Positions 6,925-63,976 of a stretch of 64,000 nucleotides of DNA are shown here, piece after piece (positions within the stretch are counted from its first letter, which is position 1; every line of letters begins with the position of its first letter). Under the pieces are notes generated by a model. It did no database searches. It was not told the DNA's origin and worked only from the letters and a program-made list of their open reading frames with translations. This DNA comes from a virus. The stretch lies in IMG/VR virus record IMGVR_UViG_3300025141_016157, positions 96,347 through 160,346 of that record. One strand, written 5' to 3'. Made by a program: the position numbers and the translations under genes.

Positions 6925-7713
6925 ATGACAAACTATGCTAAGAAAAACGCGTCTTTAATTTTTGAACATATTAGGATCGATGAGGCTGAGGCAGAAGATG
7001 TAGATGTAGTAGGCTTTGAAATCAATGAAACGTTAGATTCTGATATATGGTCTGAAAGTGAAAAGATGAAACCTGAGGTTAGAGAGAAACTTCTTGCTGT
7101 CTCTGAAGACTTTATAGCTGGGCTTCCATTCGATGTTGACGCTGAAGATATTAAACTAACTGGATCTCTTGCGACATATAACTGGTCAAGATTTTCCGAT
7201 GTTGATCTTCATATTGTAGTTGATTTTACTACTGTTGATGATGATGAACAGCTAGTAAAAGATTATTTTAATTCCAAGAAGACTGTGTGGAACTTAAAGC
7301 ATGAAATTTATATACGAGGATATGAAGTTGAAATATACGTTGAAAATATAAATGATAAACACACAGCACAAGGCATGTATTCAATTCTTCACGATGAGTG
7401 GATAAAGAAACCAAAAAGAGAATTTTTTGAGATAGATGAGGAAGAAGTTAGGAAAAAGGCAGCATCAATAATGTCGCAGATAGAGTATATCGAAGAAGTC
7501 TCAAGCGATGAGCCAGCAGAAGCAGAAAAACTAGCAGAAAGAACAAAAGAAAAAATTAGAAAGATGAGACAGGCAGGTCTTGATTCAGAGAAGGGAATCT
7601 ATTCAGTTAAAAATGTTGCTTTTAAAGTCCTAAGAAGAAACGGATATCTTGAGAGGCTAAGTAATATAAAGACTCAGTCATATGACAGGGTAATGTCTCT
7701 AGCAGACCTATAA
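6925..7713 (+). CDS. Pol-beta-type nucleotidyltransferase domain protein
   Basis: A 262-residue protein with a minimal nucleotidyltransferase core: LTGSLATYNWSRFSDVDLH carries the GS motif and the two metal-binding aspartates in DVDLH, and a later EVEIYVE strand may hold the third carboxylate. The family appears often in marine phages with unknown substrate. The first 25 residues include IRIDEAEAED, which fits an (L/I)xE-A prohead-type cleavage site, so the protein might be processed and packaged. The C-terminal third is helical and charged. It is followed after 8 nt by the SleB-like gene, suggesting one transcript. Confidence 0.7.
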   Translation: MTNYAKKNASLIFEHIRIDEAEAEDVDVVGFEINETLDSDIWSESEKMKPEVREKLLAVSEDFIAGLPFDVDAEDIKLTGSLATYNWSRFSDVDLHIVVDFTTVDDDEQLVKDYFNSKKTVWNLKHEIYIRGYEVEIYVENINDKHTAQGMYSILHDEWIKKPKREFFEIDEEEVRKKAASIMSQIEYIEEVSSDEPAEAEKLAERTKEKIRKMRQAGLDSEKGIYSVKNVAFKVLRRNGYLERLSNIKTQSYDRVMSLADL

Positions 7714-7721
7714 TTAGATAC

Positions 7722-8357
7722 ATGATTATTACAGAGAAAAGGATAAGAGAAATTGTTCTCGAAGAAATTATAAGAGAGCAAGAAGAAGTCAATCAAGATT
7801 GTCCAATTCCATTTCTTGCTGCCATATTAGCCTCTGAAGCTCCCAATAGTGAAAGAGAGATGAGTGCCGTATATGATGTTATTATGAAACGAGCAGAAAT
7901 AGGCTTTAAAGAAGTAAATACGGTCGATGGACAATTAAGAGTTCCCAGGCAATTCTCTGGATATACAAGATTTAGACCAGACGATACTGCATTTATTGCA
8001 TACTATAGTGGTACTGCTCCAGATTCTGAATATTCAGTTTCAGCAGATAGAGTAGAAACAGAGAAGCTTATAAGAAGAAATCAATTTAAAAGAGCATGTG
8101 GTGTAATAGTCTCAGATTTTCAAGATCCCGGTAACCCAGATGCACCTACATATGGAGCAACTCATTTTGTAAATCCAAGAGCAGCATCGACAGATAACAA
8201 GTGGTGGGAACTAGATACGTTTAGACCGATTCCGATTAATAATGGATATATAGGTGATCATCTTTTTGGGTGGGACTTGACAACAAGACAGTCAAGAGAA
8301 TCATATTTACAGTTTAGATCTAGCCATCCAGAATTTAGCAGTCTCTATCCGGATTAA
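7722..8357 (+). CDS. SleB-like cell-wall hydrolase with N-terminal packaging-type tag
   Basis: Residues 1-19 match the shared tag (MIITEKRIREIVLEEIIRE). The remainder resembles the Hydrolase_2 / SleB lytic glycosidase fold: LAAILASEAPNSEREMSAVY corresponds to the family's early catalytic-glutamate region, followed by RQFSGYTRF and YGATHFVNP, which align with the family's QFSG and GATHF segments. Predicted action is cleavage of peptidoglycan glycan strands. With a packaging tag instead of a signal peptide, a virion-carried lysin used at entry is the best guess. Length is 211 residues. The SleB assignment is by motif only, so moderate. Confidence 0.65.
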   Translation: MIITEKRIREIVLEEIIREQEEVNQDCPIPFLAAILASEAPNSEREMSAVYDVIMKRAEIGFKEVNTVDGQLRVPRQFSGYTRFRPDDTAFIAYYSGTAPDSEYSVSADRVETEKLIRRNQFKRACGVIVSDFQDPGNPDAPTYGATHFVNPRAASTDNKWWELDTFRPIPINNGYIGDHLFGWDLTTRQSRESYLQFRSSHPEFSSLYPD

Positions 8358-10738: not shown

Positions 10739-11671
10739 ATGAAGCTAACTCAAAAATCTTTAAAGAAAATTATTCTTAGCGAGCTTAGAAGGTCCATATC
10801 AGAACAAGCACGAGATGCGGGTGACGTCCCCGGGGGCCAGGCACCAGCACGAGGCACCCAAGCCTATGCTGACAGCCAGAGAGAAATATGGGGTGTCTCT
10901 GATGAAGATCTCGAAAGAGAGCGCATCCAGAAACAGGCAGACGAGCGAGGAATATCTTTTGAAGAAATGGAGGCTATTCTTGCTCATATGGATTCCCCAG
11001 AGTACCGCAGAGAACAATACCTAAGACAGCAAGAACAGGCACGTGCCCATGCACGGGATGAAGGAAACTGGCCTGAGCCAAGGACTGGCAATATGTATGA
11101 AATCATTGGTGATCCACACAGCGTTGATATTCAAAACGGATTGAAGTGGTTGTGGCTTGGTGCAGTCCGGGACTCTAAGGTTTTGGAAGGTGTTGCTAAA
11201 CAGTTCACCCCTAGAGTTCCAGCTGAGGGTGAGTACTTGGCAGGTTTTTCTTCTCCGATGTGGGCATTGGTTGATCACAGGGACGAAAATGGTGTATATA
11301 CACAGCTTGTCACTCAGCCCGTGGGTGAGAGGCGAAGAGGCGCAGAGATATGCAGAATCACCGTCGAATACATTATGAAAGTATCGGGCGATCAAGTAGA
11401 TTGTGAAATGGCATGGAACAGTGATATGGTTAGACCAGGTAGCCAGCTTGCGCGAATGATGGACGCAGCAGTTCAGGCAGTAAATGGTTCATCAGCTTCT
11501 TTCCCTGCATCGCTAAAATTCTTTCCTGATGGACGAACTGAGGGAGCAAACGCAGAAGTTCCAGCCTCAGAAGACGAAGTACCGGTTGCAATTCTTGAAT
11601 TCACAGGAGGCGAGGTTGTGGCGCTGGTCAACATGGACTTCGGTTTTCGCGTTAGCCCATATGCTCGATAA
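10739..11671 (+). CDS. Tagged accessory protein, function unknown
   Basis: A 310-residue protein. Residues 1-22 (MKLTQKSLKKIILSELRR then SISE) match the shared tag and end in ISE before QA, close to the T4 prohead protease consensus. A low-complexity, Arg/Gln/Glu-rich helical stretch follows (about 30-110), then a more globular part (about 120-310) that I do not recognise; no HExxH or nucleotide-binding motif is visible. The 5' part of the gene is richer in G+C (a CCCCGGGGGCC run) than neighbouring genes, which suggests recent acquisition. Probably cargo delivered in the capsid if the tag hypothesis holds. Confidence 0.7.
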   Translation: MKLTQKSLKKIILSELRRSISEQARDAGDVPGGQAPARGTQAYADSQREIWGVSDEDLERERIQKQADERGISFEEMEAILAHMDSPEYRREQYLRQQEQARAHARDEGNWPEPRTGNMYEIIGDPHSVDIQNGLKWLWLGAVRDSKVLEGVAKQFTPRVPAEGEYLAGFSSPMWALVDHRDENGVYTQLVTQPVGERRRGAEICRITVEYIMKVSGDQVDCEMAWNSDMVRPGSQLARMMDAAVQAVNGSSASFPASLKFFPDGRTEGANAEVPASEDEVPVAILEFTGGEVVALVNMDFGFRVSPYAR

Positions 11672-18663: not shown

Positions 18664-19995
18664 ATGAAGATAACAGAGTCAAGAATCAGAAGAATTATAA
18701 GAGAAGAGCTTCTTCAGGAATCTAGTGACTTTAGATTTGACATTAACAAAAGTGTATATGTACTTCCTGATGCGCAGGTAGAGATTGAAAAAGCGGGGGA
18801 TGGCTGGCTATTAAAGATCAGGAATTTACAAGCAGGACAATTTGGTTCAGTTCCTTTGAACATCTACGGACCATCCTACATGCTTGATTCGCTTGTACCA
18901 CACGGAGCAGAGCCGGGCGATAAGCATCATAGGTTCTTGCAATCTGTAGGCTTTCCATTTGATGATCATCCTCCCTACGAAACCTGGGAGAATGAATTTC
19001 CCGGGGGCGCCAGAAGATTTATCACTGATGGTGACTACCTTGATCAGTACCTTGAAAGATTTCACAAAGATGAGGAATTTACTAGTGAGTTCAGGCTAAG
19101 CTACTTTGGCTACGCTCAGGATGTCTTACAGGGAATTCGCTTAACGCTTGATAGAATTGACAGCTATATACATAGCAATAGGGTTCAAAATATCATAGCT
19201 AGGGATCATGATGATTTTAAAGATAAGCTTGCAAAATTTTTCTCAATAAGTGAAATAAACATTGTTGATAAGACAGCACGAGATACGGCTGGTTTCTATA
19301 TGCCATCTGAACACAGTATCACAATTGCAGTTGCAAGAAACCCGCGTAAGGTGACAAGGGAAACAACCTATCATGAATTTCTTCATCACTGGCAAGAAAT
19401 TTTTGATGAACCTGAAAATTTTGATTGGAAGTTTCGTCCACTTGAACGTGAAGATGAGACAGGCTTAGGGCAAGAAGATGAAACATATGAAGCTCTTTAT
19501 TCACAACTAATGGCTGCCTCAAATATTCCAGTAAGAAGGTGGCTTAGGAACCTCGGAGCAAGCTATCTTAATCTTCCTACTAATTTTGACAGATATACTG
19601 TTAGAGAGTCAATGAGAAAAGCTGAAAGCTTTGAGATGTCATTAAGCGCTGATGATAAGGGGGAGTGGAGTGGTTTTGATTCAGTCTTTAAGGCATTTTA
19701 CCAGTTTCAGGAAAACCACTTTACAATGTCCCTAAGACGACTCTTTATGATCTTAAATAACTTAGGATATGATTTAGATTTAACTAGTGATAATAGCATT
19801 GAAAGATTTAAAGAGGGATTAAATTTATTTTTAAGATTTGGATTTCCACACAGCGTATATCTTAAAAACAGGGATTTGATTGCGTTACCTTTGTTTCTTA
19901 AGCCTACACCAAAGAATATAAATTTAATCACAAGAATAGGTGATACTCTTGCTTCTAATGAAATACATTCTGACAGTGGTACTGAAACTGTATAA
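18664..19995 (+). CDS. Tagged HExxH metallopeptidase-like protein
   Basis: A 443-residue protein beginning with MKITESRIRRIIREELLQE, the clearest copy of the shared tag, with LQE before SS matching the prohead-protease consensus. The central zinc motif is HEFLHHW within ETTYHEFLHHWQEIF (about residue 240), with an acidic EDETYEALYS segment some 30 residues later that could give the third ligand. The C-terminal third is helical. Its first 60 bases are nearly identical to those of the gene at 20970. No signal peptide. Candidate packaged peptidase. Confidence 0.75.
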   Translation: MKITESRIRRIIREELLQESSDFRFDINKSVYVLPDAQVEIEKAGDGWLLKIRNLQAGQFGSVPLNIYGPSYMLDSLVPHGAEPGDKHHRFLQSVGFPFDDHPPYETWENEFPGGARRFITDGDYLDQYLERFHKDEEFTSEFRLSYFGYAQDVLQGIRLTLDRIDSYIHSNRVQNIIARDHDDFKDKLAKFFSISEINIVDKTARDTAGFYMPSEHSITIAVARNPRKVTRETTYHEFLHHWQEIFDEPENFDWKFRPLEREDETGLGQEDETYEALYSQLMAASNIPVRRWLRNLGASYLNLPTNFDRYTVRESMRKAESFEMSLSADDKGEWSGFDSVFKAFYQFQENHFTMSLRRLFMILNNLGYDLDLTSDNSIERFKEGLNLFLRFGFPHSVYLKNRDLIALPLFLKPTPKNINLITRIGDTLASNEIHSDSGTETV

Positions 19996-20969: not shown

Positions 20970-23900
20970 ATGAAGATAACAGAATCCAGAATCAGAAGAA
21001 TCATAAGAGAAGAGCTTCTTAAAGAAGATAGCGAAGATACCGTTCTAGGAAAAATGAGCTGGCCCATGGCGCCTGGTGTCTCAGACCCGTTTGGTGAACT
21101 ACGATCCTCAAATCCCCCACCAGTTCTTTCAACATCAATGTGGTATGACCTCGATGGTGACGCAATGCTATCGAGTCATAAGATTGAATCAAAGAAATTT
21201 ATTGAACACCTTATGGATACTATAGAGCACAGAGGTGGAGTTGCAAACTCTGTTGCAAATGCTGGACACATCGCAGCTGTCTACAAGGAAATGGGTGTTG
21301 AGACGCGAATAGCTCCATACCCTGGGCCTAAGCATTGGGGTGCAGGAGATTATGAGTCATGGGGAGAGTTTCCAGGATCAGCAAGAAGTTTTTTTAAAAA
21401 GTATGACCCATGGGTTCTTGATGCGGACGAGATATTTCTCGTAACAGTTGATAATACTTCTTACAGGGCTCCTGGCCAAAAAGTTACAGAGATTGAACCT
21501 GAAGATATGGAGATGGGAGTTGAATACGGAGGAACAACTGATCCCGCAGCTGGCAAGATTAAGCGAGCACTTAGCTCTCTACTTGGTGACCTTACGCTTC
21601 CTGCCCATTACGATCCTTCACCAGTTCAACTGACCGCTGCTAAATCATGGCTGTCTCAATGGCTTCCAGGAGGAAATCCATCTCCTGAAATGGCTAGGGC
21701 AATGGCAGCTACAAATCCATACAATGCTGTCTGGGAAACATTTCTAGGTCCAATAAAAGAGTGTCTAAGCGGTCAAGCAGCTGCCAAAGAAGAAGCTACT
21801 CGAAGAGCATCAAAGCAGGATGATTTCTATTCTAGAGAAGGGGCAGACATAACCTTTGCTGGAGGAGCAACGTCAGAGGATACCCAGGCTGTTCTCAAAC
21901 AAATGCAAAAAACTGGGGAGGCAGAAAAGATATCAGATGAATCAATTGGGACTTCTTCTGCTGGTCTGTGTGCATCAGCCAGAGCATCAGAGCTTATAGC
22001 ATTGTTAGTTTTGCCATCTGGACAGTTTACTTTAGCCGGAAGGATTGCGCTAGCAGCTGGTCTCGTTCATCTTGCAAGAGGCTCTCACAGAGAGGCTATG
22101 TTTGAACTACTGCTTGGTGCATTTGAGATTGTAGCAGCAACCAAAGCGATTGTAAGATATACCGCAGTAGTTAAAAGTGCACTTAGGTCAGGAAAGCTTC
22201 CGGCAGATGACATTCTCGAAGAAATGATTAAAGCTGGAGTATTTGAAGAGCATGCTGATATAATAAGGCGGTTAGCAAGACAGCCAAAGATGGAGGAAGA
22301 AGTTCAAGCTATGCGCCAAGAGATGGCAAGAGTAATCGAGACAATGGATAGTACAGATCCCTTGAAGCCTTATCTGGATGCATATGTTAGAGGAGCCAGT
22401 TCAGATGAGCTTAGGGGAATATACAAGGCTGCCAAGGCTGAGATTGAGTCTGGAGCTCGCTGGGACATTCACACGTCAACTAGACGTGCAGCTGATATTG
22501 ATCCAGATGAGCTCGATGCGTGGCTAGAAAGACTTGAGGACTTACCGCTTACATCATCTCCTGGATCTAGAAAAGCTGTAATAGACAAGTATATAGAATC
22601 TCAGATCAGTATAAATAGAGCTCTGGAAGCTGAACAGGCAACAGCAAGAGGTGCAGGTCGAGGGAAATCGACTCCGGAAAATCCATGGGGAAAGGGTCCT
22701 GAGCCTAAAGCAATTAGACCCGCAGGATCTAAGGCGCCATTAGCACAAACAGCCAATATGGGAAGACAGATTATTGATTTAGCATATGCCAAATTACGAT
22801 CGATACCTGATGGTAAAATTTATAAGATTGCAAAATTCGAAAGAGGTCACTTCAGCGACGTTGATAGAATTGAAATTAGACTGGATGGTTTGTTTGATGT
22901 TGATGATATTGAAAAAATTGTTGACGACTCTCTCGGTGACTATCTAAACACGCTCACACCCCCGCAGGCATCAAGGTATAAGCAAGATGTTATTGAAGAA
23001 ATCCAAAACCTTGACTTTGTAGTAGGACCAAGGACTCCTGACAGGGTGGGACAATATGTCCAATCCGGACCTGGTCAAAGAGGCCAAGTCTGGGTTGAAC
23101 CGTTTGACAAAGAAGAGTGGAAGGCTATAGTAGGAACCAATAGAGATCGACCAGATTTTGAAGAAGCCGTTAAAAAAGCTTTTATCGACGCTCTAGATTC
23201 TGGAACAAAATTTGATTTGCCAGAGCAGGTGAGAAATACACTTTCTCATGAACTTGGTCACTGGATAGACCTCACTATCGAGGGAAATAAATATGATCAC
23301 CTTATTGTAGATTCAAATGGAATTCCCATGAGGGAAATCGATGGCAAGCAGATGACATTTGATCAAGCTGTCAAAGAAAGAAAAGTTAAAACAATAGAAG
23401 AATGGCTACAGGACCCGCCGGATATCTTTGGAGATTTCGTAACGCAACCCTGGCATGGAAGAATTGGGGAGCTAGATGCTGAAATAACAAGAGGCGTAAC
23501 AGATTTTCAAGATTCCCTAGAGGCATCAATTAAAAGAATTCGTGACCTTGATGATCAATATAAGCTTCCCTGGGATATCTCTCCCAGAAAGCCGCCGCGA
23601 GATCAACAGCCAGTAGCATCTGATAGTCCGTCAGCATGGGATAGAAGAAGTACTACCAAACACCCATCACAGACTACTCGCAGACAAGAGCCGAAAAAAT
23701 GGGATGATGCAGAGACAAAGTCAGCAATGCACAAAGAAGAGATGGCAGAGATCGGCTTGGACGAACTAGATTATACATATCAAATATTGACTGATAAAGA
23801 TCTATTTAGGGATATATTTGTCGGAGACTACTTTCCTATTGAGCCTAACCGTGGGTATCTTGATGATTATGGATGGGTAGGAAGTGCAGAAAATATCGTA

Positions 23901-24047
23901 GATCAAAAGATTGATGACGTTCTTTTCGAACCTGGCGGATTATGGGACTGGGCTAGAAAGGAAGCAGGAATAAACGTTGAGTACATTGACATGCAGGAGT
24001 CAGTTGTATATGTGTCTCGGTGGATGAAACTTGCAGGTATAAAATGA
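20970..24047 (+). CDS. Large tagged HExxH metallopeptidase-like protein
   Basis: A 1025-residue protein with the tag MKITESRIRRIIREELLKE, ending LKE before DS. About residues 345-410 are unusually hydrophobic and alanine-rich (LIALLVLPSGQFTLAGRI), possibly a membrane-interacting or insertion segment. A zinc motif HELGH lies near residue 763 (TLSHELGHWIDLTIEG) with an acidic GELDAEITRG downstream. Long charged helices flank both. The architecture of tag, membrane-active segment and peptidase suggests a virion-delivered enzyme that may have to cross a membrane; this is inference. The stop overlaps the next small gene (ATGA). Confidence 0.75.
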   Translation: MKITESRIRRIIREELLKEDSEDTVLGKMSWPMAPGVSDPFGELRSSNPPPVLSTSMWYDLDGDAMLSSHKIESKKFIEHLMDTIEHRGGVANSVANAGHIAAVYKEMGVETRIAPYPGPKHWGAGDYESWGEFPGSARSFFKKYDPWVLDADEIFLVTVDNTSYRAPGQKVTEIEPEDMEMGVEYGGTTDPAAGKIKRALSSLLGDLTLPAHYDPSPVQLTAAKSWLSQWLPGGNPSPEMARAMAATNPYNAVWETFLGPIKECLSGQAAAKEEATRRASKQDDFYSREGADITFAGGATSEDTQAVLKQMQKTGEAEKISDESIGTSSAGLCASARASELIALLVLPSGQFTLAGRIALAAGLVHLARGSHREAMFELLLGAFEIVAATKAIVRYTAVVKSALRSGKLPADDILEEMIKAGVFEEHADIIRRLARQPKMEEEVQAMRQEMARVIETMDSTDPLKPYLDAYVRGASSDELRGIYKAAKAEIESGARWDIHTSTRRAADIDPDELDAWLERLEDLPLTSSPGSRKAVIDKYIESQISINRALEAEQATARGAGRGKSTPENPWGKGPEPKAIRPAGSKAPLAQTANMGRQIIDLAYAKLRSIPDGKIYKIAKFERGHFSDVDRIEIRLDGLFDVDDIEKIVDDSLGDYLNTLTPPQASRYKQDVIEEIQNLDFVVGPRTPDRVGQYVQSGPGQRGQVWVEPFDKEEWKAIVGTNRDRPDFEEAVKKAFIDALDSGTKFDLPEQVRNTLSHELGHWIDLTIEGNKYDHLIVDSNGIPMREIDGKQMTFDQAVKERKVKTIEEWLQDPPDIFGDFVTQPWHGRIGELDAEITRGVTDFQDSLEASIKRIRDLDDQYKLPWDISPRKPPRDQQPVASDSPSAWDRRSTTKHPSQTTRRQEPKKWDDAETKSAMHKEEMAEIGLDELDYTYQILTDKDLFRDIFVGDYFPIEPNRGYLDDYGWVGSAENIVDQKIDDVLFEPGGLWDWARKEAGINVEYIDMQESVVYVSRWMKLAGIK

Positions 24048-34736: not shown

Positions 34737-35129
34737 ATGAGATTGACAGACTTAATCGTTGAAAGTGCAGAAAGAGAGTTTTCCGGAGTAGGATCTGTTG
34801 ACGATATGATACAACAGGTATCAGTAAAATCTACTATTGATGCAGGATTACCCATAATTGCTAGAGAATCAGACTGGGAGACACTTCAAAGTCCTACACG
34901 CCTTGCAAGATCTTTTTCATTTGAATCTCTAGATAAAATTAGATATTTTATTAATGAAATGCTTGCATATCAATCTATATCAAATCATCACTGCACAATG
35001 ATAGTTCAAGAAAATATTATCCATATAGAGACATATACACATGATGTAAATAATATAACTGCTCAAGATTTAAGCTTAGCAAAATTTGCAGATGAGATAT
35101 ATGAAGACACTAGGTTCTTTTTAACATGA
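34737..35129 (+). CDS. Pterin-4a-carbinolamine dehydratase-like protein
   Basis: A 130-residue protein whose second half follows the PCD/DCoH pattern: DWETLQSPTRLARSFSFESL, then KIRYFINEMLAYQ, SNHHCTMIVQ (the HH pair), and IHIETYTHDVNNITAQDLSL (the TH and later D). In the family these residues form the pterin active site. The N-terminus MRLTDLIVESAERE includes IVE before S, a possible prohead cleavage site. Pterin recycling in a phage is unusual, though PCD-like genes are known in cyanophages. It starts 3 nt after the large acidic gene. Confidence 0.7.
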   Translation: MRLTDLIVESAEREFSGVGSVDDMIQQVSVKSTIDAGLPIIARESDWETLQSPTRLARSFSFESLDKIRYFINEMLAYQSISNHHCTMIVQENIIHIETYTHDVNNITAQDLSLAKFADEIYEDTRFFLT

Positions 35130-36610: not shown

Positions 36611-37885
36611 ATGAGAATAAGTCGTCAAAAAATTGAAAGTCTGATTCTATCTGAGATAAGTTTAAAACATGAAATAGACTCAGATGAGTATATAAATGAA
36701 CTTGATGACCTGATACTATCCATCAAGAATCTTAAAAGCTCTTTAAGAAAAGGGCCTAGTAGAAAGTCAAATAGAAAGGAAATGCATCGATTGCAAAGTG
36801 CAATAGAGGCTGTTAGATTTATTAAAAAAAAATCTAAGAGAAAAAGAGAAAAAATGCTTTCTGAGGGTGGAAGGAAAATTTCTCACCTGCCAGAAGATAA
36901 AATAGCAAAGCTATCTCCTGAAGTTGTTACAAGTGCAATCTCAATCTATAGAGACCTTATTGCCCAGTTTAATGATTATCTAGGGCAGAAAGGGCTAGAT
37001 CCAGTTTCACCAGATAGAGCAGTTGGATCAACTGCTTATTATCAGGAAGATCTTGAGGAAGATTCAGATGTTATCTACGGAGATATAGACTATCTTGTTG
37101 TATTTCCACACGTTAAAAATAGTGAAAATTTTAAAAACTTAAGAGATTTACAGTCCAGAACTAAAAGAGAGTACTCTGGTTACTTTCTTGATTTTATAAA
37201 ATCTTCTAGTCCCGACAATGTAGACGTAGAGCTAACAGGTGAGGTATCTCCAACCATGGTTGTCTTGTCACTTCCAGATGATAAAAAAGTCCAAGTTGAT
37301 CTTATAGCAACGTTTCCAAGATATCAGGAATGGATGAATACAAGATGGGTTCCTGAAAGAGGTGTCAAAGGATATATTGGTGGAAATCTATACAAAGCAT
37401 TTGGAGATTCACTTGTTCTAACAGTTGGAGATCAGGGTGTTATTGCAAGAACTATTGATGGAAAAAGAGTTTCGTCAAACAAGCGAGGAAAAGAAGTAAA
37501 CGTTGAGCAAATATCATCAAGCCCACAGACTTTTTTTAAAGATATAGTTTCCTATCTATCCGGAGACAGTTTACAAATTTCAAAAGATCTGGAAGACTTC
37601 CAGGGAATGGATCCTAAAAATATTTCTGTATCTGATATAGCAAAAGGTATAAGACTTGTTTCAGAAAATCTTTATGAAAATGACTCCCTTCCGTCGAGAT
37701 TTAAAAATCCAAGAGAGATGCTAGAGGAGGTTCTTGCTCGTTTTAAGATAGCTATAGACAACTCTCTTTCTAAGAAGTCAAAGCCAAGCTCTCAAGGTGG
37801 TATGTTAAGTGATGAAAAGCTATCAAAGCTAGTAAAAATGAATGCAGAGCAGTATAATAATGTTAAAAGTGAATTTAACTTATAG
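36611..37885 (+). CDS. Pol-beta-type nucleotidyltransferase with tag-like N-terminus
   Basis: A 424-residue protein. The N-terminus MRISRQKIESLILSEISL follows the tag pattern (basic, then IESLILSEI) but without a clean LxE cleavage site. The nucleotidyltransferase core is AVGSTAYYQEDLEEDSD then VIYGDIDYLVVF, giving GS and two aspartates (GDIDY), with a third candidate carboxylate in KVQVDLIATF. The following helical region is unrecognised. Its substrate is unknown; three such cores occur in the window. Located just before the metallophosphoesterase and the giant nucleotidyltransferase protein. Confidence 0.7.
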   Translation: MRISRQKIESLILSEISLKHEIDSDEYINELDDLILSIKNLKSSLRKGPSRKSNRKEMHRLQSAIEAVRFIKKKSKRKREKMLSEGGRKISHLPEDKIAKLSPEVVTSAISIYRDLIAQFNDYLGQKGLDPVSPDRAVGSTAYYQEDLEEDSDVIYGDIDYLVVFPHVKNSENFKNLRDLQSRTKREYSGYFLDFIKSSSPDNVDVELTGEVSPTMVVLSLPDDKKVQVDLIATFPRYQEWMNTRWVPERGVKGYIGGNLYKAFGDSLVLTVGDQGVIARTIDGKRVSSNKRGKEVNVEQISSSPQTFFKDIVSYLSGDSLQISKDLEDFQGMDPKNISVSDIAKGIRLVSENLYENDSLPSRFKNPREMLEEVLARFKIAIDNSLSKKSKPSSQGGMLSDEKLSKLVKMNAEQYNNVKSEFNL

Positions 37886-37896
37886 AACGGCTTCGA

Positions 37897-38550
37897 ATGG
37901 ATTTCTTTATATCTGACTGTCATTTCGGTCACAAAAATATAATACGTTACATGGATAGACCATTTATGTCTGTCGATGATATGAATTTAAAAATGATCAA
38001 TCTTTGGAATGATACAGTTACTAATGATGATAGAGTCTTCTTAGTAGGAGACGCATTTCTTTGTAATGATGAAAAATCATCTGATATACTTAGTCAGCTT
38101 AACGGTTATAAAGTTTTAATTGCTGGCAATCATGACAAATCTGAAAGAACAATGCTTGACATAGGTTTCGATGAGTATCATAGAGAGCTTCAGTACAGCC
38201 TTGGTGATCTCGGAATTGCACTTATGAAACATTACCCACTTCCAGATATAGTGATCAAGGAAAAGGGGTATGACTATCTAATACACGGGCATCTTCATCG
38301 ACCGCCTCACACACAGGGTCTTAAAATTAATGTTGCTGCAGATCTTATTGACTTTATTCCAAAGGACTCTAATTATATAAGAACAATGCTCACGAGATCA
38401 GTTTCAAATGAAGAAAATGAAAAACTAGATTTTAAAATTAAAGACGATAAGATTAGTTTAAATTTAGAAATTAGAATTGAAGATTTTTCTGGAAGTGTAG
38501 ACCATATTTATAGTATATTAAGAAAGCATTGGGCTGAGGAAGAAAAATGA
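37897..38550 (+). CDS. Calcineurin-like metallophosphoesterase
   Basis: A 217-residue phosphoesterase: FISDCHFGHKNI (motif I), LVGDAFLC, IAGNHDKS and IHGHLHRPPH in the canonical order. Proteins of this type occur next to RNA repair or nucleotidyltransferase genes in phages; here the ATGA-overlapping neighbour is a ligase-like, three-NTase protein, so a joint 2',3'-end-processing or phosphate-removal role is plausible. Substrate not determined by sequence. Confidence 0.8.
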   Translation: MDFFISDCHFGHKNIIRYMDRPFMSVDDMNLKMINLWNDTVTNDDRVFLVGDAFLCNDEKSSDILSQLNGYKVLIAGNHDKSERTMLDIGFDEYHRELQYSLGDLGIALMKHYPLPDIVIKEKGYDYLIHGHLHRPPHTQGLKINVAADLIDFIPKDSNYIRTMLTRSVSNEENEKLDFKIKDDKISLNLEIRIEDFSGSVDHIYSILRKHWAEEEK

Positions 38551-41500
38551 AATTAGGACTTTATGGCGGCGGATTTAAACCGTTTCACACAGGACATTTT
38601 GCAAAATTACTTCTTGCACTAGACGAGAGCGATAGAGTTCTTTCGTTTTTCGGAATAAAGAAGCAGAAGATAAGCAAGAAAACGGGAAAGCCTTTAAAGA
38701 CACATTTTAGAAAATTCGGTGATGGCCCTGATGCAAGAGATTTTAATCAAGAAATGCAAGAGAAAATTGTTGCCATCTACGAGAAAGCTTTACAAGATGC
38801 ATATCCTGGAACACTAGATGTTATACCATCAGCTGATATTACACCGATAACAAATGTCCATAGCATGCTAGATAGGTTTGCATATTCTCAGATGACAGAC
38901 GAAGAGAAGCAAGAAGTGGGAACAGGGGAAAGCATACCAGAACTAACCTATCAAAGCTCTGGTGAAGATGGTGGTTCAATAAAAATAGATTTTAACGATA
39001 TTGATGAAGTTATAGTTGTTGCAGGATCAGAAGAGATTAACGGTCCCGTTTACATGGGAGCAATCAATAGGCGCGCAGAAAGAGGTGATTCTCGCATTGG
39101 AGAAAAGGTGAAGGAGCTTGTTGATTTGGGAAAAATAAAGCTAACTTCTGGTACAGCAGATGAAGGAAGGCTTGTTAATCTTTTAAATCAATATCATGAC
39201 AATGCAACAGAAGATATGGTAACTGTAAGAGGGACAGGTGTCCGTGGCCTAGCTGGAAGTAGAGATGTAGAGAATCTAATTAAATACCTGCCTAATATTC
39301 TTCCTCAGGATCAAAAAGAAGAAATAATAAAAATACTAATAGGTGAAGAACAGCTAGAACCATCAGCGAAGACGGAGTCATTTTTTATGCCAATTATTAC
39401 AGATAGCACAGTCTTAAGAGCTGCAGCACGATTTACAGCAAGAAAAAAAATTAAAGAATCTGTAGCAAGAAAAAAGGGAGAGGATCATATACCCGGGTTG
39501 ACAGAAGATATGTCTCTTACATTTGATAATCTTAGAAGTCTTATTGACGATGTTCTTAGCGGAAGAGTTGAGCATGTTGAGGAAAAGATGGATGGTCAAA
39601 ATTTTACATTCACCGTCCTTGATAATGGTGAAATAAGACTGTTTGGAAAAGGTGTTAGTGCAACTACATTAGAAAAAGGCGGAGCTGGAAGAGATGATAT
39701 TAGAGATCATCAAAGGTGGAATGAAAATGTTAAAGATGCTTTTGGATCTGGATATGATGTTGTAGATAAATACCTTGATGGTAAGGATGCTGATCTCATA
39801 AAAAGATTCTTTCAAAATGGAAAAGTTGTAGTTGAAGGACAGGTTATGACTCCGGCAAATCCTAATACGATACCATATACAGAAAATCATGTACGGTTTA
39901 TTAGACCGTTCACGCCTTATGATACTGAGATAGATCAGGATTCTTACAGAGATCTATTTTCAGATGCAGATGTAGAAATTCAAGATGAAAAAGGCCGTGA
40001 GTGGTCACTAGGTCATGTTCCAAAGCTTAAACAAGTTCAAGTTGATGCAAGCGAGATGCATGGAAAAATACAGGAATTACAAAGTGACATAGACAATCTT
40101 TTGTCAGGTATGGATCCCACCCCTCAGACTGTTGGTGAATATGCATCCCATGTATTAGAAAAATACATTGAAAGAGTTTCACCCCAGCTTGATCTAAGTG
40201 GTCTCAGCAGTGATCAAAAGAGAAGAGCACTTCAAAGACTTGCAACGGGCGATAAAAAAGTAATTGGAAAACCTGAAATGGGAAGTGCCTGGGCTGAGTT
40301 CCAGCAATTTGAAAAAATGAGAACTGCTCATGTATCTGCTGCAATAGCAGATCTAGAAAAAATTGTTCAAAAATTAGGGTCTTACTTTTTCGATACTCTT
40401 GAGTTTGCCTTGGCAACAAATGAGGGTGTGGTTGCAGAGCTAGCAAATGAAGTTGAGAAAATAAAACGTGCAAGAGAATCAGACCAGATAGTAGTTAAAA
40501 ATATTGAAACTGGCGATGTGTCTGATATGATTGATTCTAAATGGGCTACAAAGTTAGATACTTCTCTGGCACGAGTCGAACAGATGGATCTATTTAAAAA
40601 AGCTGTAGAGGGTGTCGTCCTTAGGTTCTCTGGCGATGATGGTAGAGACATTGTCACAAAATTAACAGGAATGTTTACACCGGTTCATAGGCTCGTAGGT
40701 CTTTTCAGATATCCAGATAGAAGCTCAAAAAGCCTTCTTTCAATTCAAATTCCAGATATTGAAGATGATATAGAAAGTGAAGATCTTACAGATGAAGAGG
40801 TTGATGCAATTAACGAAGTCCTTAGAGAGTTTGCTTTTAAACTGGGCTGGGAGAATATATTAATTGAAGGAGGTGCAGCATTTAAAAATATAGATGGTGA
40901 TAGTTTAACTACTAATATTGAATTAAAAAATGTCAATGATACTCTTGAAGATTTCTTCTCTAGCCACTTAAAACCTGCTGGTGTTGATATCTATAGACCT
41001 ATAGGAAGCACAGGTAAGAAATCGAAATCTGGTGATCTTGATATAGTGATTGGATCACCTCAAGGTATTGACAATCGTACTTTTAAAAATAAACTACTTG
41101 GTGCAATTCAATCTTCAATAGTAGACGGAGATGCAAAGCTTGTTGGACAAAATATAGCAGTAATGTATCCGATTAAAGGTTCACAACATGATGATTATGT
41201 TCAGATAGATATTATGATTGATAAATGTCCAGATGATGCATGCTGGCTTATGGCTGGAACAGGAGACGGTGAGATCAAAGGTGTGTATAGAAATTTACTA
41301 CTTAGCCATATTGCAAAAAGGCTAAGCCAGGATTCAGAAAACACACTATTCCCAGATGAAAAGATAGTAATATCAAACCCCGGCGGTCTTCAGTATAAGA
41401 GAATTAAAGACAATATAGACGGTCACCCTCATGATAAAAAGAATAATAAGAAGTGGACTAATATAGGGGAAAAAATTACTTCACCAGAAGAGATATTAAA

Positions 41501-43235
41501 AATATTGGGAATTAACATTTCACCAGAAGAGGCATTGACATTTCGTGGTGTTGCAAATGCAATAAATTCTGATCCGTCTCTTCAAAAGTACTTTGTTTCC
41601 GGTGATGCTAGTGATGGATTTGAAAGACTTTCATTTGAGGAATACATCTCTAGACACTTGACAGATGACAAGACATCACAAGAAGCTAGAAAAGCAGTAG
41701 AATATATTAATAATCTTAGCCTAGATGGAAATATTTCAACCCTGGCACTAGACGAACAAATAATCATACAGCAAATAGTCAGTAAAATTCTATCAGAGGG
41801 TAATTCAAATTCTTCGTCATTCCCATTTTCAAAAATTAGATGGTCTGACAAACTAAAGATGTTTTCATCCGGAAAGTGGAATCTTTGGCAAGAAAGGGTT
41901 TCAGCAACAGCAGACGGTGGAAAAGATCCAGAAGGTGCAGAGAAAGCTGTTGCTGCTATGGAGAACTTAATATACATTAGTCAAAATGGATATTCCGTAG
42001 TGGGCCAAGAAGGCGGAGGAATTCTTATACAGGGAAAGGGGATTAATGCAAAACTTGATGCTGATGAGGCTGTGGAGTATATTATTGGAATCAGAACAAG
42101 CGAGGATGAAGGAGAGCCAGCTCTTCCAAAAGTTAGAATAAGACACGTTGCAGGAACAAAACCATATGATCTAGAGCTTGCAGAGAATGGTGAGGCACTC
42201 GAGGTTAAAAAGATGGGCGGTAAAGATAGGCTTTCAAAGCTTGGATCTGCAACAGGCCGTGTCTTCGATAGACAGGTTAAGATTATAAGGCCCATTAGAG
42301 ATGCTGGACAAATTTCACAAAAGTTTATTGAAACTGGTTCAATTATTGATGAAAACGGCGCAGCTCTGATTAGAAGGATAGATTCTCCCCCTGAGGGATT
42401 TGAAATAGAAAATGTTGCAAAAGCAGTTGAAATGGTAGATTACTTTTTCAATAAGATTAGATTTGGAAACTCTAAAAAAGAACTTCCGGGAATAATGATA
42501 AAAGTAGAGGGTGGCCAGCTAGGCGCAGGAATGGTAAGAAAAATAAAGAGAAATGATCTTTTGAATATTCCAGATATGGGCAATCTCTTTGACATATGTA
42601 AAAAAGTATTAAATAATACACTTGGTGACTACTCTCCTGGAAAAGCAAGAGGGGATGACAGGGAGGGTGACAGTGTAGACGTTAAAGCTCAAACAGGAAA
42701 TACTGAATTTGAAGGCAAGGTATCGCTTGATTATTTTTACGATGAACTTATTTATAAACTATTTGACACAGATGAAGACAGTGTCGAGATAGATCCAGAA
42801 TTAATAGAATCATATGCGCAGTCGATAGAGATGCTCTCTGAAATCTATTCAGCTCTTGTCAAGATTAAAAATAATCAAGGAGAAGATGTATTCGATAATT
42901 TTATTTCAGATCTTCACTACGGGGGATTTTATGGCGTAGATTCGGAAGCCTATTATTCAATACCATGTGACTCAGATCATCTCGAAGTATATGGGACAAC
43001 TCAGGGATTCAGAGCTGTTCTTTCAATGAAGTCAATCCCACCTGAGGGCAGGGGTATATCTAGTGTAAAAATTAAAAAACCTGTTCCAGAAGAAGAGGTA
43101 GACCTTGAAGTCGATTTAAACTCTATAGATCCAAAGAAAGAGAATCCTGATGAGACACAAGATCATGATGTAGAAGAGATCGATATAGAAAAGATAGAGA
43201 ATGAAGAATCAGAAGATACCAGAGAAGATAGTTGA
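38547..43235 (+). CDS. Giant protein with three nucleotidyltransferase folds (adenylyltransferase, ligase-like, pol-beta-like)
   Basis: A 1562-residue chain. (1) Residues 1-310: cytidylyl/NMN-adenylyltransferase-like Rossmann domain with HTGH at 14-17 (GGGFKPFHTGHFAK) and an STVLR helix end near 285. (2) Residues about 315-770: covalent nucleotidyltransferase (ligase) fold with motif I EEKMDGQN, lysine K347, motif III/IIIa-like VVVEGQVM, and motif IV/V EGVVLRF. (3) About 800-930: pol-beta-type core, GSTGKKSKSGDLDIVIG (G820, D830, D832) and QIDIMI. The C-terminal 600 residues are unrecognised with an acidic tail. Likely nucleic-acid or nucleotide repair; substrate unknown. The end overlaps the next gene by 35 nt. 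Confidence 0.75.
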   Translation: MKLGLYGGGFKPFHTGHFAKLLLALDESDRVLSFFGIKKQKISKKTGKPLKTHFRKFGDGPDARDFNQEMQEKIVAIYEKALQDAYPGTLDVIPSADITPITNVHSMLDRFAYSQMTDEEKQEVGTGESIPELTYQSSGEDGGSIKIDFNDIDEVIVVAGSEEINGPVYMGAINRRAERGDSRIGEKVKELVDLGKIKLTSGTADEGRLVNLLNQYHDNATEDMVTVRGTGVRGLAGSRDVENLIKYLPNILPQDQKEEIIKILIGEEQLEPSAKTESFFMPIITDSTVLRAAARFTARKKIKESVARKKGEDHIPGLTEDMSLTFDNLRSLIDDVLSGRVEHVEEKMDGQNFTFTVLDNGEIRLFGKGVSATTLEKGGAGRDDIRDHQRWNENVKDAFGSGYDVVDKYLDGKDADLIKRFFQNGKVVVEGQVMTPANPNTIPYTENHVRFIRPFTPYDTEIDQDSYRDLFSDADVEIQDEKGREWSLGHVPKLKQVQVDASEMHGKIQELQSDIDNLLSGMDPTPQTVGEYASHVLEKYIERVSPQLDLSGLSSDQKRRALQRLATGDKKVIGKPEMGSAWAEFQQFEKMRTAHVSAAIADLEKIVQKLGSYFFDTLEFALATNEGVVAELANEVEKIKRARESDQIVVKNIETGDVSDMIDSKWATKLDTSLARVEQMDLFKKAVEGVVLRFSGDDGRDIVTKLTGMFTPVHRLVGLFRYPDRSSKSLLSIQIPDIEDDIESEDLTDEEVDAINEVLREFAFKLGWENILIEGGAAFKNIDGDSLTTNIELKNVNDTLEDFFSSHLKPAGVDIYRPIGSTGKKSKSGDLDIVIGSPQGIDNRTFKNKLLGAIQSSIVDGDAKLVGQNIAVMYPIKGSQHDDYVQIDIMIDKCPDDACWLMAGTGDGEIKGVYRNLLLSHIAKRLSQDSENTLFPDEKIVISNPGGLQYKRIKDNIDGHPHDKKNNKKWTNIGEKITSPEEILKILGINISPEEALTFRGVANAINSDPSLQKYFVSGDASDGFERLSFEEYISRHLTDDKTSQEARKAVEYINNLSLDGNISTLALDEQIIIQQIVSKILSEGNSNSSSFPFSKIRWSDKLKMFSSGKWNLWQERVSATADGGKDPEGAEKAVAAMENLIYISQNGYSVVGQEGGGILIQGKGINAKLDADEAVEYIIGIRTSEDEGEPALPKVRIRHVAGTKPYDLELAENGEALEVKKMGGKDRLSKLGSATGRVFDRQVKIIRPIRDAGQISQKFIETGSIIDENGAALIRRIDSPPEGFEIENVAKAVEMVDYFFNKIRFGNSKKELPGIMIKVEGGQLGAGMVRKIKRNDLLNIPDMGNLFDICKKVLNNTLGDYSPGKARGDDREGDSVDVKAQTGNTEFEGKVSLDYFYDELIYKLFDTDEDSVEIDPELIESYAQSIEMLSEIYSALVKIKNNQGEDVFDNFISDLHYGGFYGVDSEAYYSIPCDSDHLEVYGTTQGFRAVLSMKSIPPEGRGISSVKIKKPVPEEEVDLEVDLNSIDPKKENPDETQDHDVEEIDIEKIENEESEDTREDS

Positions 43236-44970: not shown

Positions 44971-46748
<1,778 letters not shown>

Positions 46749-47593: not shown

Positions 47594-48319
47594 ATGGGTA
47601 ATTTACTTGATGTATATATGAAAGATGTTGGGAAATCTTCACTGCTCTCTCGAGAGCAAGAGGTTGAACTTTGCAAAAGAATTGAAATGGGCGATAGCTC
47701 TGCAAGAGATAAGATGATACAAAGCAATCTTAGACTTGCAATTAGCATTGCAAAGAGGTACTACAGAAGTGGATGCCCAATGGAAGACCTAATCCAGGAA
47801 TCTAATATTGGTCTCATGAAAGCAGTTGAGAGATTTGACTGGAGAAGGGGATTTAAGTTTAGTACATACGCAAGCTGGTGGATTAAGCAATCTGTATCGC
47901 GGTACGTAGCATCACATAAAAATACAGTTAGAGTTCCCTCTCATGCAATTTCACTTGCATATAAAGTAAAGAATCTAATTAAAGAATATGAAGAGGATCT
48001 CGGGAGCGTTCCGTCTGTTAAGGAAATAGCATCTCTTCTTGGTGTTACTGAGTCCATGGTTGAGCTGAGTGTTGAATCTCTTAAGCTTAATAATATTCTA
48101 TCTATTGATACACCGGTTGGTGATGCAGATTCATCTAGAACTATCGGTGACATGATTGAAGATAAAGATGCAAACTCTGTTGAAGATATACTAGATAACC
48201 AAAAAATAAGATCAGTAATTGTAGCTTCGCTTTCTAGACTAAGCAAAAGAGAAGAACAGGTTTTAAGATTGAGATTTGGAATCTCTGAAATTGAAAACGC
48301 AGAAGACTTTGAAATTTAA
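47594..48319 (+). CDS. Sigma-70 family RNA polymerase sigma factor lacking region 4.2
   Basis: A 241-residue sigma factor. Region 1.2: LLSREQEVELCKRIEMG. Region 2: NLRLAISIAKRYYRSG, PMEDLIQESNIGLMKAVERF, FKFSTYASWWIKQSVSRYV (-10 recognition). Region 3: a SVKEIASLLGVTESMVE helix-turn-helix. Region 4.1 starts (LSKREEQVLRLRFGI) but the chain ends a few residues later, so the -35-binding helix-turn-helix is missing. The next gene, 11 nt downstream, encodes a small HTH protein that may supply it. Ribosome site ACAGGAGAAAAAC. It would redirect host RNA polymerase to phage promoters. Confidence 0.9.
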   Translation: MGNLLDVYMKDVGKSSLLSREQEVELCKRIEMGDSSARDKMIQSNLRLAISIAKRYYRSGCPMEDLIQESNIGLMKAVERFDWRRGFKFSTYASWWIKQSVSRYVASHKNTVRVPSHAISLAYKVKNLIKEYEEDLGSVPSVKEIASLLGVTESMVELSVESLKLNNILSIDTPVGDADSSRTIGDMIEDKDANSVEDILDNQKIRSVIVASLSRLSKREEQVLRLRFGISEIENAEDFEI

Positions 48320-63347: not shown

Positions 63348-63425
63348 AGGCCTATAGCTCAATCAGGTTAGAGCATCGCTCTCATAAAGCGAGGGTTCTC
63401 GGTTCGAGTCCGAGTAGGCCTACCA
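63348..63425 (+). tRNA. tRNA with anticodon CAU (Ile2 candidate or Met)
   Basis: A complete cloverleaf with encoded CCA: 7-bp acceptor AGGCCTA/TAGGCCT, D stem GCTC/GAGC, anticodon stem TCGCT/AGCGA with loop CTCATAA, T stem CTCGG/CCGAG. Anticodon CAU at 63383-63385. The acceptor has C4-G69 and C5-G68, pairs also seen in bacterial tRNA-Ile2, and TilS is encoded in the window, so I lean to tRNA-Ile(CAU) read as AUA after lysidine modification; elongator Met remains possible. Confidence 0.85.
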
Positions 63426-63491
63426 TTTTTGATATTTTATAATTTAAAAAGACCCCCGGGCACAGTGCCTAGAAACTCGAAAGGAGAGAAA

Positions 63492-63770
63492 ATGAAAATA
63501 AAAACAAATGAAAATAAGATCGCCGATCATCACTATACATCAGCAGATGCTGGTGTGATGATTAGTGGTACTTTGAGTAATATTCCGTATGAATCCTATG
63601 TGACGATGGCAACAGATGCCGGCGTCAAGATTATTAAAGAGACAGTTTATACTATGAATAGAATCAAACTCCATGATCGACTGAACAAGGTTGCTTCAGG
63701 TACTATTACAGTAGAGGAGTTTATGAATGTTGTCCAGGGTGAAGTTCTGAGAACAGCAACGGGAATGTAA
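63492..63770 (+). CDS. Small hypothetical protein between tRNA genes
   Basis: A 92-residue protein starting at ATG 63492 after AAAGGAGAGAAA; the upstream ATG at 63429 is less likely as it has no such site. KIADHHYTSADAGVMISGTL, then ETVYTMNRIKLHDRLNKVAS and EEFMNVVQGEVLRTATG. Phage genomes often place small ORFs between tRNAs. Function unknown. Confidence 0.6.
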   Translation: MKIKTNENKIADHHYTSADAGVMISGTLSNIPYESYVTMATDAGVKIIKETVYTMNRIKLHDRLNKVASGTITVEEFMNVVQGEVLRTATGM

Positions 63771-63778
63771 AGAAAATT

Positions 63779-63808
63779 TTGTAAACCTATCCTAGCAGAG
63801 GATATAAT
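63779..63808 (+). promoter_or_regulatory. Putative phage promoter for tRNA, TTGTAAA-N17-TATAAT
   Basis: TTGTAAA at 63779-63785 and TATAAT at 63803-63808 (17-nt spacer) end 8 nt before the second tRNA, so transcription would begin at about the tRNA 5' end. Confidence 0.65.
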
Positions 63809-63816
63809 AGATTCAT

Positions 63817-63893
63817 CGGATCCTAGCTCAATCGGTTAGAGCAGCGGTCTCATAAACCGCCGGTTCTGGGTTCAAGTCCCAGGGATCCGACCA
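63817..63893 (+). tRNA. tRNA with anticodon CAU (Met or Ile2)
   Basis: Cloverleaf with encoded CCA: acceptor CGGATCC/GGATCCG, D stem GCTC/GAGC, anticodon stem GCGGT/ACCGC with loop CTCATAA, T stem CTGGG/CCCAG, discriminator A. Anticodon CAU at 63851-63853. C1-G72 is paired and the D arm is elongator-like, so it is not a typical initiator. Most likely elongator Met, with the first CAU tRNA being Ile2, or the reverse. Confidence 0.85.
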
Positions 63894-63900
63894 CTGCTTA

Positions 63901-63976
63901 GGGTCAATAGCTCAATTGGTAGAGCACCGGCCTTTTAAGCCGTAGGTTCTGGGTTCAAGTCCCAGTTGACCCACCA
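63901..63976 (+). tRNA. tRNA-Lys (anticodon UUU)
   Basis: Cloverleaf with encoded CCA: acceptor GGGTCAA/TTGACCC, D stem GCTC/GAGC, anticodon loop CTTTTAA (UUU at 63934-63936), T stem CTGGG/CCCAG. The outermost anticodon-stem pair is a C-U mismatch (63927 with 63943). Starts 7 nt after the CAU tRNA, so co-transcribed. AAA and AAG codons are frequent in the window's genes. Confidence 0.88.

Follow-up and report, generated by a model that had tools for sequence, protein, structure and literature searches.

A phage protein with HxGH adenylyltransferase-like, RNA-ligase-like and PolX-like domains from a widespread adenylyltransferase–ligase family

Bacterial LigD unites a phosphoesterase, a polymerase and a ligase. 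Among viruses, Phaeocystis globosa virus encodes PgVPolX, a PolX–ligase fusion that fills and seals gaps (PMC5537341), and the RNA repair systems of phages consist of an ATP-grasp RNA ligase together with polynucleotide kinase, a HAD or calcineurin phosphatase and the pol-beta nucleotidyltransferase RlaP (PMC7824862). The gene described here lies in a stretch of 64,000 nucleotides (the window) taken from a 160-kb viral fragment, labelled G000, and forms one uninterrupted frame of 1562 codons on the plus strand, from the ATG at 38547 to the stop at 43235.

Domain architecture of the 1562-residue protein

The motifs GGGFKPFHTGH (aa 7–17), EKMDGQ (346, containing K347), EGVV (688), GST (820) and GDLDIVIG (829) are found along the protein. 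The features of the locus, with the basis of each assignment in brackets, are as follows.

36611..37885, plus strand: second pol-beta-like nucleotidyltransferase, 424 aa, GST..YGDID..VQVD (alignment; hhalign to the PolX-like domain)
37897..38550, plus strand: calcineurin-like phosphoesterase, 217 aa (Pfam Metallophos 6e-4; phrog_547 2.5e-39)
38547..43235, plus strand: fused 1562-aa protein, CyT – ligase – PolX-like – C-terminal region (ORF listing; full-length homologue in G001)
38547..39356, plus strand: HxGH (CyT/HIGH) adenylyltransferase-like domain, aa 1–270 (AF2, Foldseek, PDB profile, hhalign)
38586..38597, plus strand: HTGH motif, aa 14–17 (H17 kept in 24/24; either H or T at position 14)
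39444..40721, plus strand: RNA-ligase-like nucleotidyltransferase domain with helical insert, aa 300–725 (Pfam, family HMM, AF2, BFVD)
39585..39587, plus strand: K347, motif I lysine, EKMDG (invariant, 32/32)
39840..39842, plus strand: Q432, motif III position (8/9 clade members have Q, and 23/23 members outside the clade have E)
40608..40619, plus strand: motif IV EGVV, aa 688–691 (E688 and G689 invariant)
40659..40670, plus strand: motif V KLTG, aa 705–708 (K705, T707 and G708 invariant)
40839..41726, plus strand: Pol X-like domain, aa ~765–1060 (Foldseek; PDB profile)
41031..41042, plus strand: GDLD, aa 829–832, with D830 and D832 (9/9)
41208..41210, plus strand: D888, third carboxylate (9/9)
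41874..43232, plus strand: C-terminal region, aa 1110–1562 (no PDB profile match; not homologous to the C-terminus of the sister clade)

A direct Pfam profile search of the protein detects RNA_ligase (Rnl2 type, PF09414) only, just under the cut-off (E 4.6e-5, 24.1 bits vs. 27), and the case for three domains therefore draws mostly on relatives and on models. The first-pass annotation of this DNA had proposed three unrelated nucleotidyltransferase folds, and had allowed that some of the motifs might be coincidental. Chance can be excluded as their origin, because the motif residues are conserved in relatives, and structure prediction domain by domain, which that annotation had proposed, gave confident AlphaFold models for all three domains; together with the Foldseek neighbours, these models confirm, at the level of predicted folds, the presence of three unrelated nucleotidyltransferases in one phage protein.

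In the N-terminal (CyT) domain, G8, F10, P12, H17 and R233 are invariant (24/24 aligned sequences), and the HxGH fold is accompanied by an SxTxxR-like motif, as in NadM. The AlphaFold (AF2) model of this domain (pLDDT 88.7, pTM 0.83) finds its best PDB matches by Foldseek in NadM/NMNAT and phosphopantetheine adenylyltransferase (PPAT), and the top ten include TmcAL, a tRNA-acting member of the HxGH superfamily. A PDB profile search, with a profile that includes the CyT domain of the window protein, matched NMN adenylyltransferase at E 4e-8, and hhalign aligned the domain with the GRFQPFH branch of the family (99.9%, E 1e-31). The best NCBIfam match of the window protein, at 14.7 bits, is far from the curated NMNAT equivalog score of 409.

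The second domain is matched by the family HMM at E 1e-106, and its AlphaFold model lies mostly at 85–95 pLDDT. The earlier assignment of K347 as the motif I lysine of a ligase with recognisable later motifs held, since K347, E688 and K705 are invariant in 32/32 aligned members, as are D349, G350, G689, T707 and G708. In the alignment, motifs III and IV are separated by a long and conserved helical insert, and in most relatives the ligase domain stops shortly after motif V, where it is followed by no OB domain, a domain usual in DNA ligases. When a two-domain model was compared with BFVD, the top matches were two phage “Cytidyltransferase-like domain-containing” proteins, which are presumably members of the same CyT–ligase family, and several phage RNA ligases, including T4-type RnlA, were found at lower ranks; a sequence-profile search with the ligase domain reached no solved structure. 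The replacement of the motif III Glu by Gln in the clade of the window phage is a real caution, as it may impair classical ligase chemistry. Membership of the T4 Rnl1 type (PF09511) was rejected, as RNA_lig_T4_1 gave no match to the window protein, and so was an NAD+-dependent ligase (LigA), as neither a PF01653 (DNA_ligase_aden) match nor NadV was found in the G000 contig, which is a fragment.

The pol-beta-type core (GST... GDLDIVIG) recognised at first reading was likewise substantiated, with G820, S821, D830, D832 and D888 kept in 9/9 sequences. Its AlphaFold model lies mostly at 80–95 pLDDT, with low-confidence stretches within aa ~735–790, and nearly all of the 50 Foldseek PDB matches listed are Pol lambda, beta or mu (prob 1.00, E ~1e-4, ~215 columns). 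A clade profile searched against PDB gave matches of E 0.006 or higher to DNA polymerase lambda, ASFV Pol X and Pol beta, in an alignment spanning the GS..GDVD stretch and the segment that follows it. The curated DNA_pol_B_palm profile gave no match to the window protein and only weak ones in its sisters (E 0.03–0.1). By its predicted structure, the domain is most like the X-family polymerases. A place in the RlaP family was rejected, as a search of nine contigs with a threshold as loose as E 10 yielded no RlaP match.

The ~450 C-terminal residues had been passed over in the first-pass annotation. No PDB profile matched aa 1110–1562, for which a known fold was accordingly rejected, and no homology was detectable between this region and the C-termini of the sister clade. 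By eye, the YDLELAENGEALEVKKM pattern in this region recalls a PD-(D/E)XK nuclease, as do D..E-x-K patterns at both the window and the sister-clade C-termini. The sister-clade C-terminus, in which SD(I/V)Y ... GIE(V/I)KLPNAQAG is conserved (L186, L187, L188, L192, L193 and L195), looks like such a nuclease from its sequence pattern, and the PDB profile search gave it no nuclease support.

A phage family pairing HxGH and ligase domains

A tblastn search of annotated phages with the 1562-aa protein matched three records over aa 314–722, namely the “cytidylyltransferase like protein” of Microcystis phage Mel-JY01, a 915-aa protein with ParB-like and cytidylyltransferase domains, and a record in which the ligase and HxGH genes are separate neighbours. 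Single-sequence scans with the whole protein and with its C-terminal half found no relatives; these were reached through the protein of Mel-JY01, to which 304 stretches of IMG/VR are related, through the ligase-domain alignment (at least 395 related stretches), and through the window phage's DNA polymerase and PolX-like domain, of which the latter two located its very close relatives. A search for the same architecture in other phages, suggested by the first-pass annotation, did recover proteins of the same kind, but the protein proved to be no isolated oddity, being instead a clade-specific elaboration of a large CyT–ligase family.

The sister contig G001 encodes a full-length fused homologue (57% identical), and the fusion is also present in L193, L194 and L195; the genes are split in L192 and L196, and in G002, G003 and G007 the HxGH domain is a separate gene of ~280 aa overlapping the ligase–PolX gene. 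Across 140 family genes that encode 380 aa or more and do not run off a contig edge, the HxGH domain is fused to the ligase in 127 (before it in 102 and after it in 25) and encoded in a nearby or overlapping gene in 8, with no HxGH partner found for the remaining 5; these are counts of sequences from partly redundant loci, not of independent events. The combination of adenylyltransferase and ligase is thus a recurrent phage module and the family is widespread, and within this family the PolX-like domain marks the clade of the window phage. The family is abundant and apparently overlooked, being annotated at most as cytidylyltransferase, and current profiles miss the ligase half in most of the members scanned.

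The near-constant pairing of an HxGH domain with an RNA-ligase-like domain raises a pointed question about its biochemistry. One answer, which we put forward tentatively, is a new ligase system, whose own HxGH adenylyltransferase would feed, recycle or direct the ligase adenylate, or adenylylate the ends to be joined, and to which phages would have added kinase-like, HAD-like and PolX-like modules; if the HxGH domain does serve the ligase in this way, the near-obligate coupling would represent a ligation chemistry not yet described. A much more specific coupling, in which an HxGH NMN adenylyltransferase regenerates NAD+ from the NMN that an NAD+-dependent ligase sets free, would fit this pairing, the NadM/NMNAT proteins among the nearest solved relatives of the HxGH domain, and the conserved H314 segment ahead of motif I. 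It is nevertheless highly improbable, given the missing DNA_ligase_aden and NadV matches in the G000 contig, the best 50 BFVD matches, which include RNA ligases and name no NAD-dependent DNA ligase, and the phosphopantetheine adenylyltransferases, which fit the HxGH domain about as well.

Further domains have been recruited in relatives. A P-loop kinase of the AAA_33/zeta-toxin type occurs in members among L005–L084, with weaker polynucleotide-kinase matches in two, and L115 and L124 have, by motif search, a HAD-type DFDDTL sequence that separates CyT from the ligase. Kinase-like and HAD-like domains are of the activity types that prepare ends for ligation, and thereby support a role in strand repair; together with the PolX-like versions, they point to phage counter-measures against nucleic-acid-cutting defences.

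Several other sequence patterns were observed in the family. Many members, e.g., L024, L105 and L089 (8966–9010) among L005–L164, start with an amphipathic leader of ~15 residues, M-x-x-L-x-x-(F/W/Y)-L-V-E-x-I-L-x-E before A, L or S, which recalls the T4 capsid-targeting sequence; it was found at 48 of 1402 ORF N-termini vs. 4 in shuffles, mostly in the CyT–ligase family and at partly redundant loci. The leader is absent from the window 1562-aa protein, for which a prohead-packaging tag was therefore rejected. The motif (L/I/V/M/F)-x-E-G-G precedes the ligase domain in 109 of the 116 distinct members checked, and also stands ahead of the PolX-like domain (LIEGG, window aa ~775) and of the second pol-beta protein (36611–37885); it may mark a cleavage site of the prohead-protease type or be no more than a conserved structural element. 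A phrog_36119 protein stands alone at 6925–7713 in the window (E 1.7e-39), and a member of that family is inserted in L077 (aa 554–780), where it separates the HxGH from the ligase domain and lies next to a putative zinc-protease domain.

Polyvalent proteins are a known class in phages (PMC5512222), and the several disparate domains of the window protein, the frequent exchange of domains around the ligase and the leader-like N-termini of many relatives would suit a bundle of unrelated activities, assembled for delivery or counter-defence and not for one pathway. This explanation is unlikely, as most of the accessory domains belong to types that process nucleic-acid ends or transfer nucleotidyl groups, and the window protein carries no leader.

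Neighbouring genes and a proposed role in strand repair

The phosphoesterase gene shares four bases (ATGA) with the fused gene, and the 424-aa protein encoded before it is related to the PolX-like domain by hhalign (prob 75, E 2.5e-5). Both genes lie directly upstream in the window phage, G001, L193, L194, L195 and L196. In G002, G003, G007 and G008, the 424-aa protein is reduced to its N-terminal ~86 aa, and the phosphoesterase was not found in these contigs, which are fragments. Since the two are jointly missing in these four relatives, they have probably come and gone as a pair, as optional companions of the fused protein; the phosphoesterase was thus rejected as an obligate partner. The earlier suggestion that the phosphoesterase completes a repair or end-modifying pathway stands insofar as repair or end processing is still the best reading, but not as regards a fixed partnership.

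Elsewhere in the window, otherwise unrelated proteins (7722–8357, 10739–11671, 18664–19995 and 20970–24047) share an N-terminus like MKITESRIRRIIREELLxE. A GroEL-like chaperonin (45159–46748, 529 aa) and an RpoD-like sigma factor (47594–48319, 241 aa), both assigned by reading the sequence, and a pterin-4a-carbinolamine dehydratase-like protein (34737–35129, Pfam E 7.6e-13) are kept in sister contigs, and two tRNA-Met genes and one tRNA-Lys gene are located at 63348–63976.

The fused protein and its neighbours comprise the same kinds of parts as the phage RNA repair set, which supports a repair function, and the type of ligase somewhat favours RNA over DNA. With slightly better than even confidence, we infer that the protein is a strand-break healing-and-sealing enzyme, a multi-enzyme repair machine of a large marine-type phage, acting more likely on RNA than on DNA. 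In this scheme, nucleotides lost at a gap or a broken end would be put back by the PolX-like domain, and the RNA-ligase-like domain would seal the strand through a K347-AMP intermediate; the HxGH domain would assist as an adenylyltransferase tied permanently to the ligase. In the phages that have them, the phosphoesterase and the second pol-beta protein may clean or extend the ends beforehand, and the broken strand would more likely be RNA, e.g., host tRNA cut by defence nucleases, than DNA. Several points speak against this repair enzyme, namely the Gln at motif III, the sub-threshold RNA_ligase match and a PolX-like domain whose model resembles DNA and not RNA polymerases, as well as the four relatives whose contigs lack the phosphoesterase and the second pol-beta core; moreover, we know of no accepted role for an HxGH domain in nucleic-acid repair.

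The resemblance to polymerases that fill DNA gaps, the PgVPolX precedent (PMC5537341), and the failure to find a DNA ligase (PF01068 or PF01653) in the 160-kb G000 fragment together argue for a repair of phage DNA, in which the PolX-like domain fills short gaps, the ligase seals them and the phosphoesterase trims 3′ ends, in analogy to LigD. Such DNA gap repair is possible but considerably less probable than the healing and sealing of RNA, as the ligase domain resembles RNA ligases and in most relatives does not extend far beyond motif V, the phosphoesterase is dispensable, and the relative G010 carries a separate ATP-dependent DNA ligase as well. The idea of a replicative ligase, conceivable for G000, was set aside in view of the separate DNA ligase of G010.

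Comparison with described systems

The NadM-type NMN adenylyltransferases (1f9a, 1ej2 and 2qjo) and PPAT share with the window CyT domain the HxGH fold and the G-x-F-K/Q-P..H.GH and ST..R-like motifs, whereas identity is low, inserts are present at ~aa 40–70 and 115–150, and there is no Nudix or ribosylnicotinamide kinase domain. LigD has in principle the same three activities as the window system, but this is an analogy only, as its polymerase is of the archaeo-eukaryotic primase type and its phosphoesterase has a different fold, unlike the window protein and its neighbour.

With the phage RNA repair set (Rnl1/Rnl2, Pnkp and RlaP), the locus has in common the functions of ligase, pol-beta nucleotidyltransferase and phosphatase, and that of kinase in relatives only; it differs in having no RNA_lig_T4_1 or RlaP match and in the motif III Gln. 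A review of phage RNA repair mentions no HxGH partner, and the word “cytidylyltransferase” is absent from its text (PMC7824862); no description of an HxGH adenylyltransferase–ligase couple was found in the literature consulted, which was mostly outside subscription journals. The protein of Microcystis phage Mel-JY01 (WWT39297.1, 639 aa) combines an HxGH domain and the same ligase family in one polypeptide, but has no PolX-like domain, and its annotation covers the HxGH part only.

Like the window protein, PgVPolX is a single viral polypeptide that unites an X-family pol-beta-like core with a ligase of the lysine-adenylylating kind (PMC5537341). Its order is PolX then ligase, its ligase is a LigA-type NAD+ DNA ligase and it has no HxGH domain, whereas the ligase domain of the window protein is RNA-ligase-like, with no match to PF01653. 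The first-pass annotation knew of no characterised protein with this order of domains, and the full order was indeed found nowhere described, although the fusion of PolX and ligase has this precedent. As PgVPolX shows that such a fusion can act as one repair enzyme, the novelty of the window protein lies mainly in its HxGH–ligase couple and in the order of its domains.
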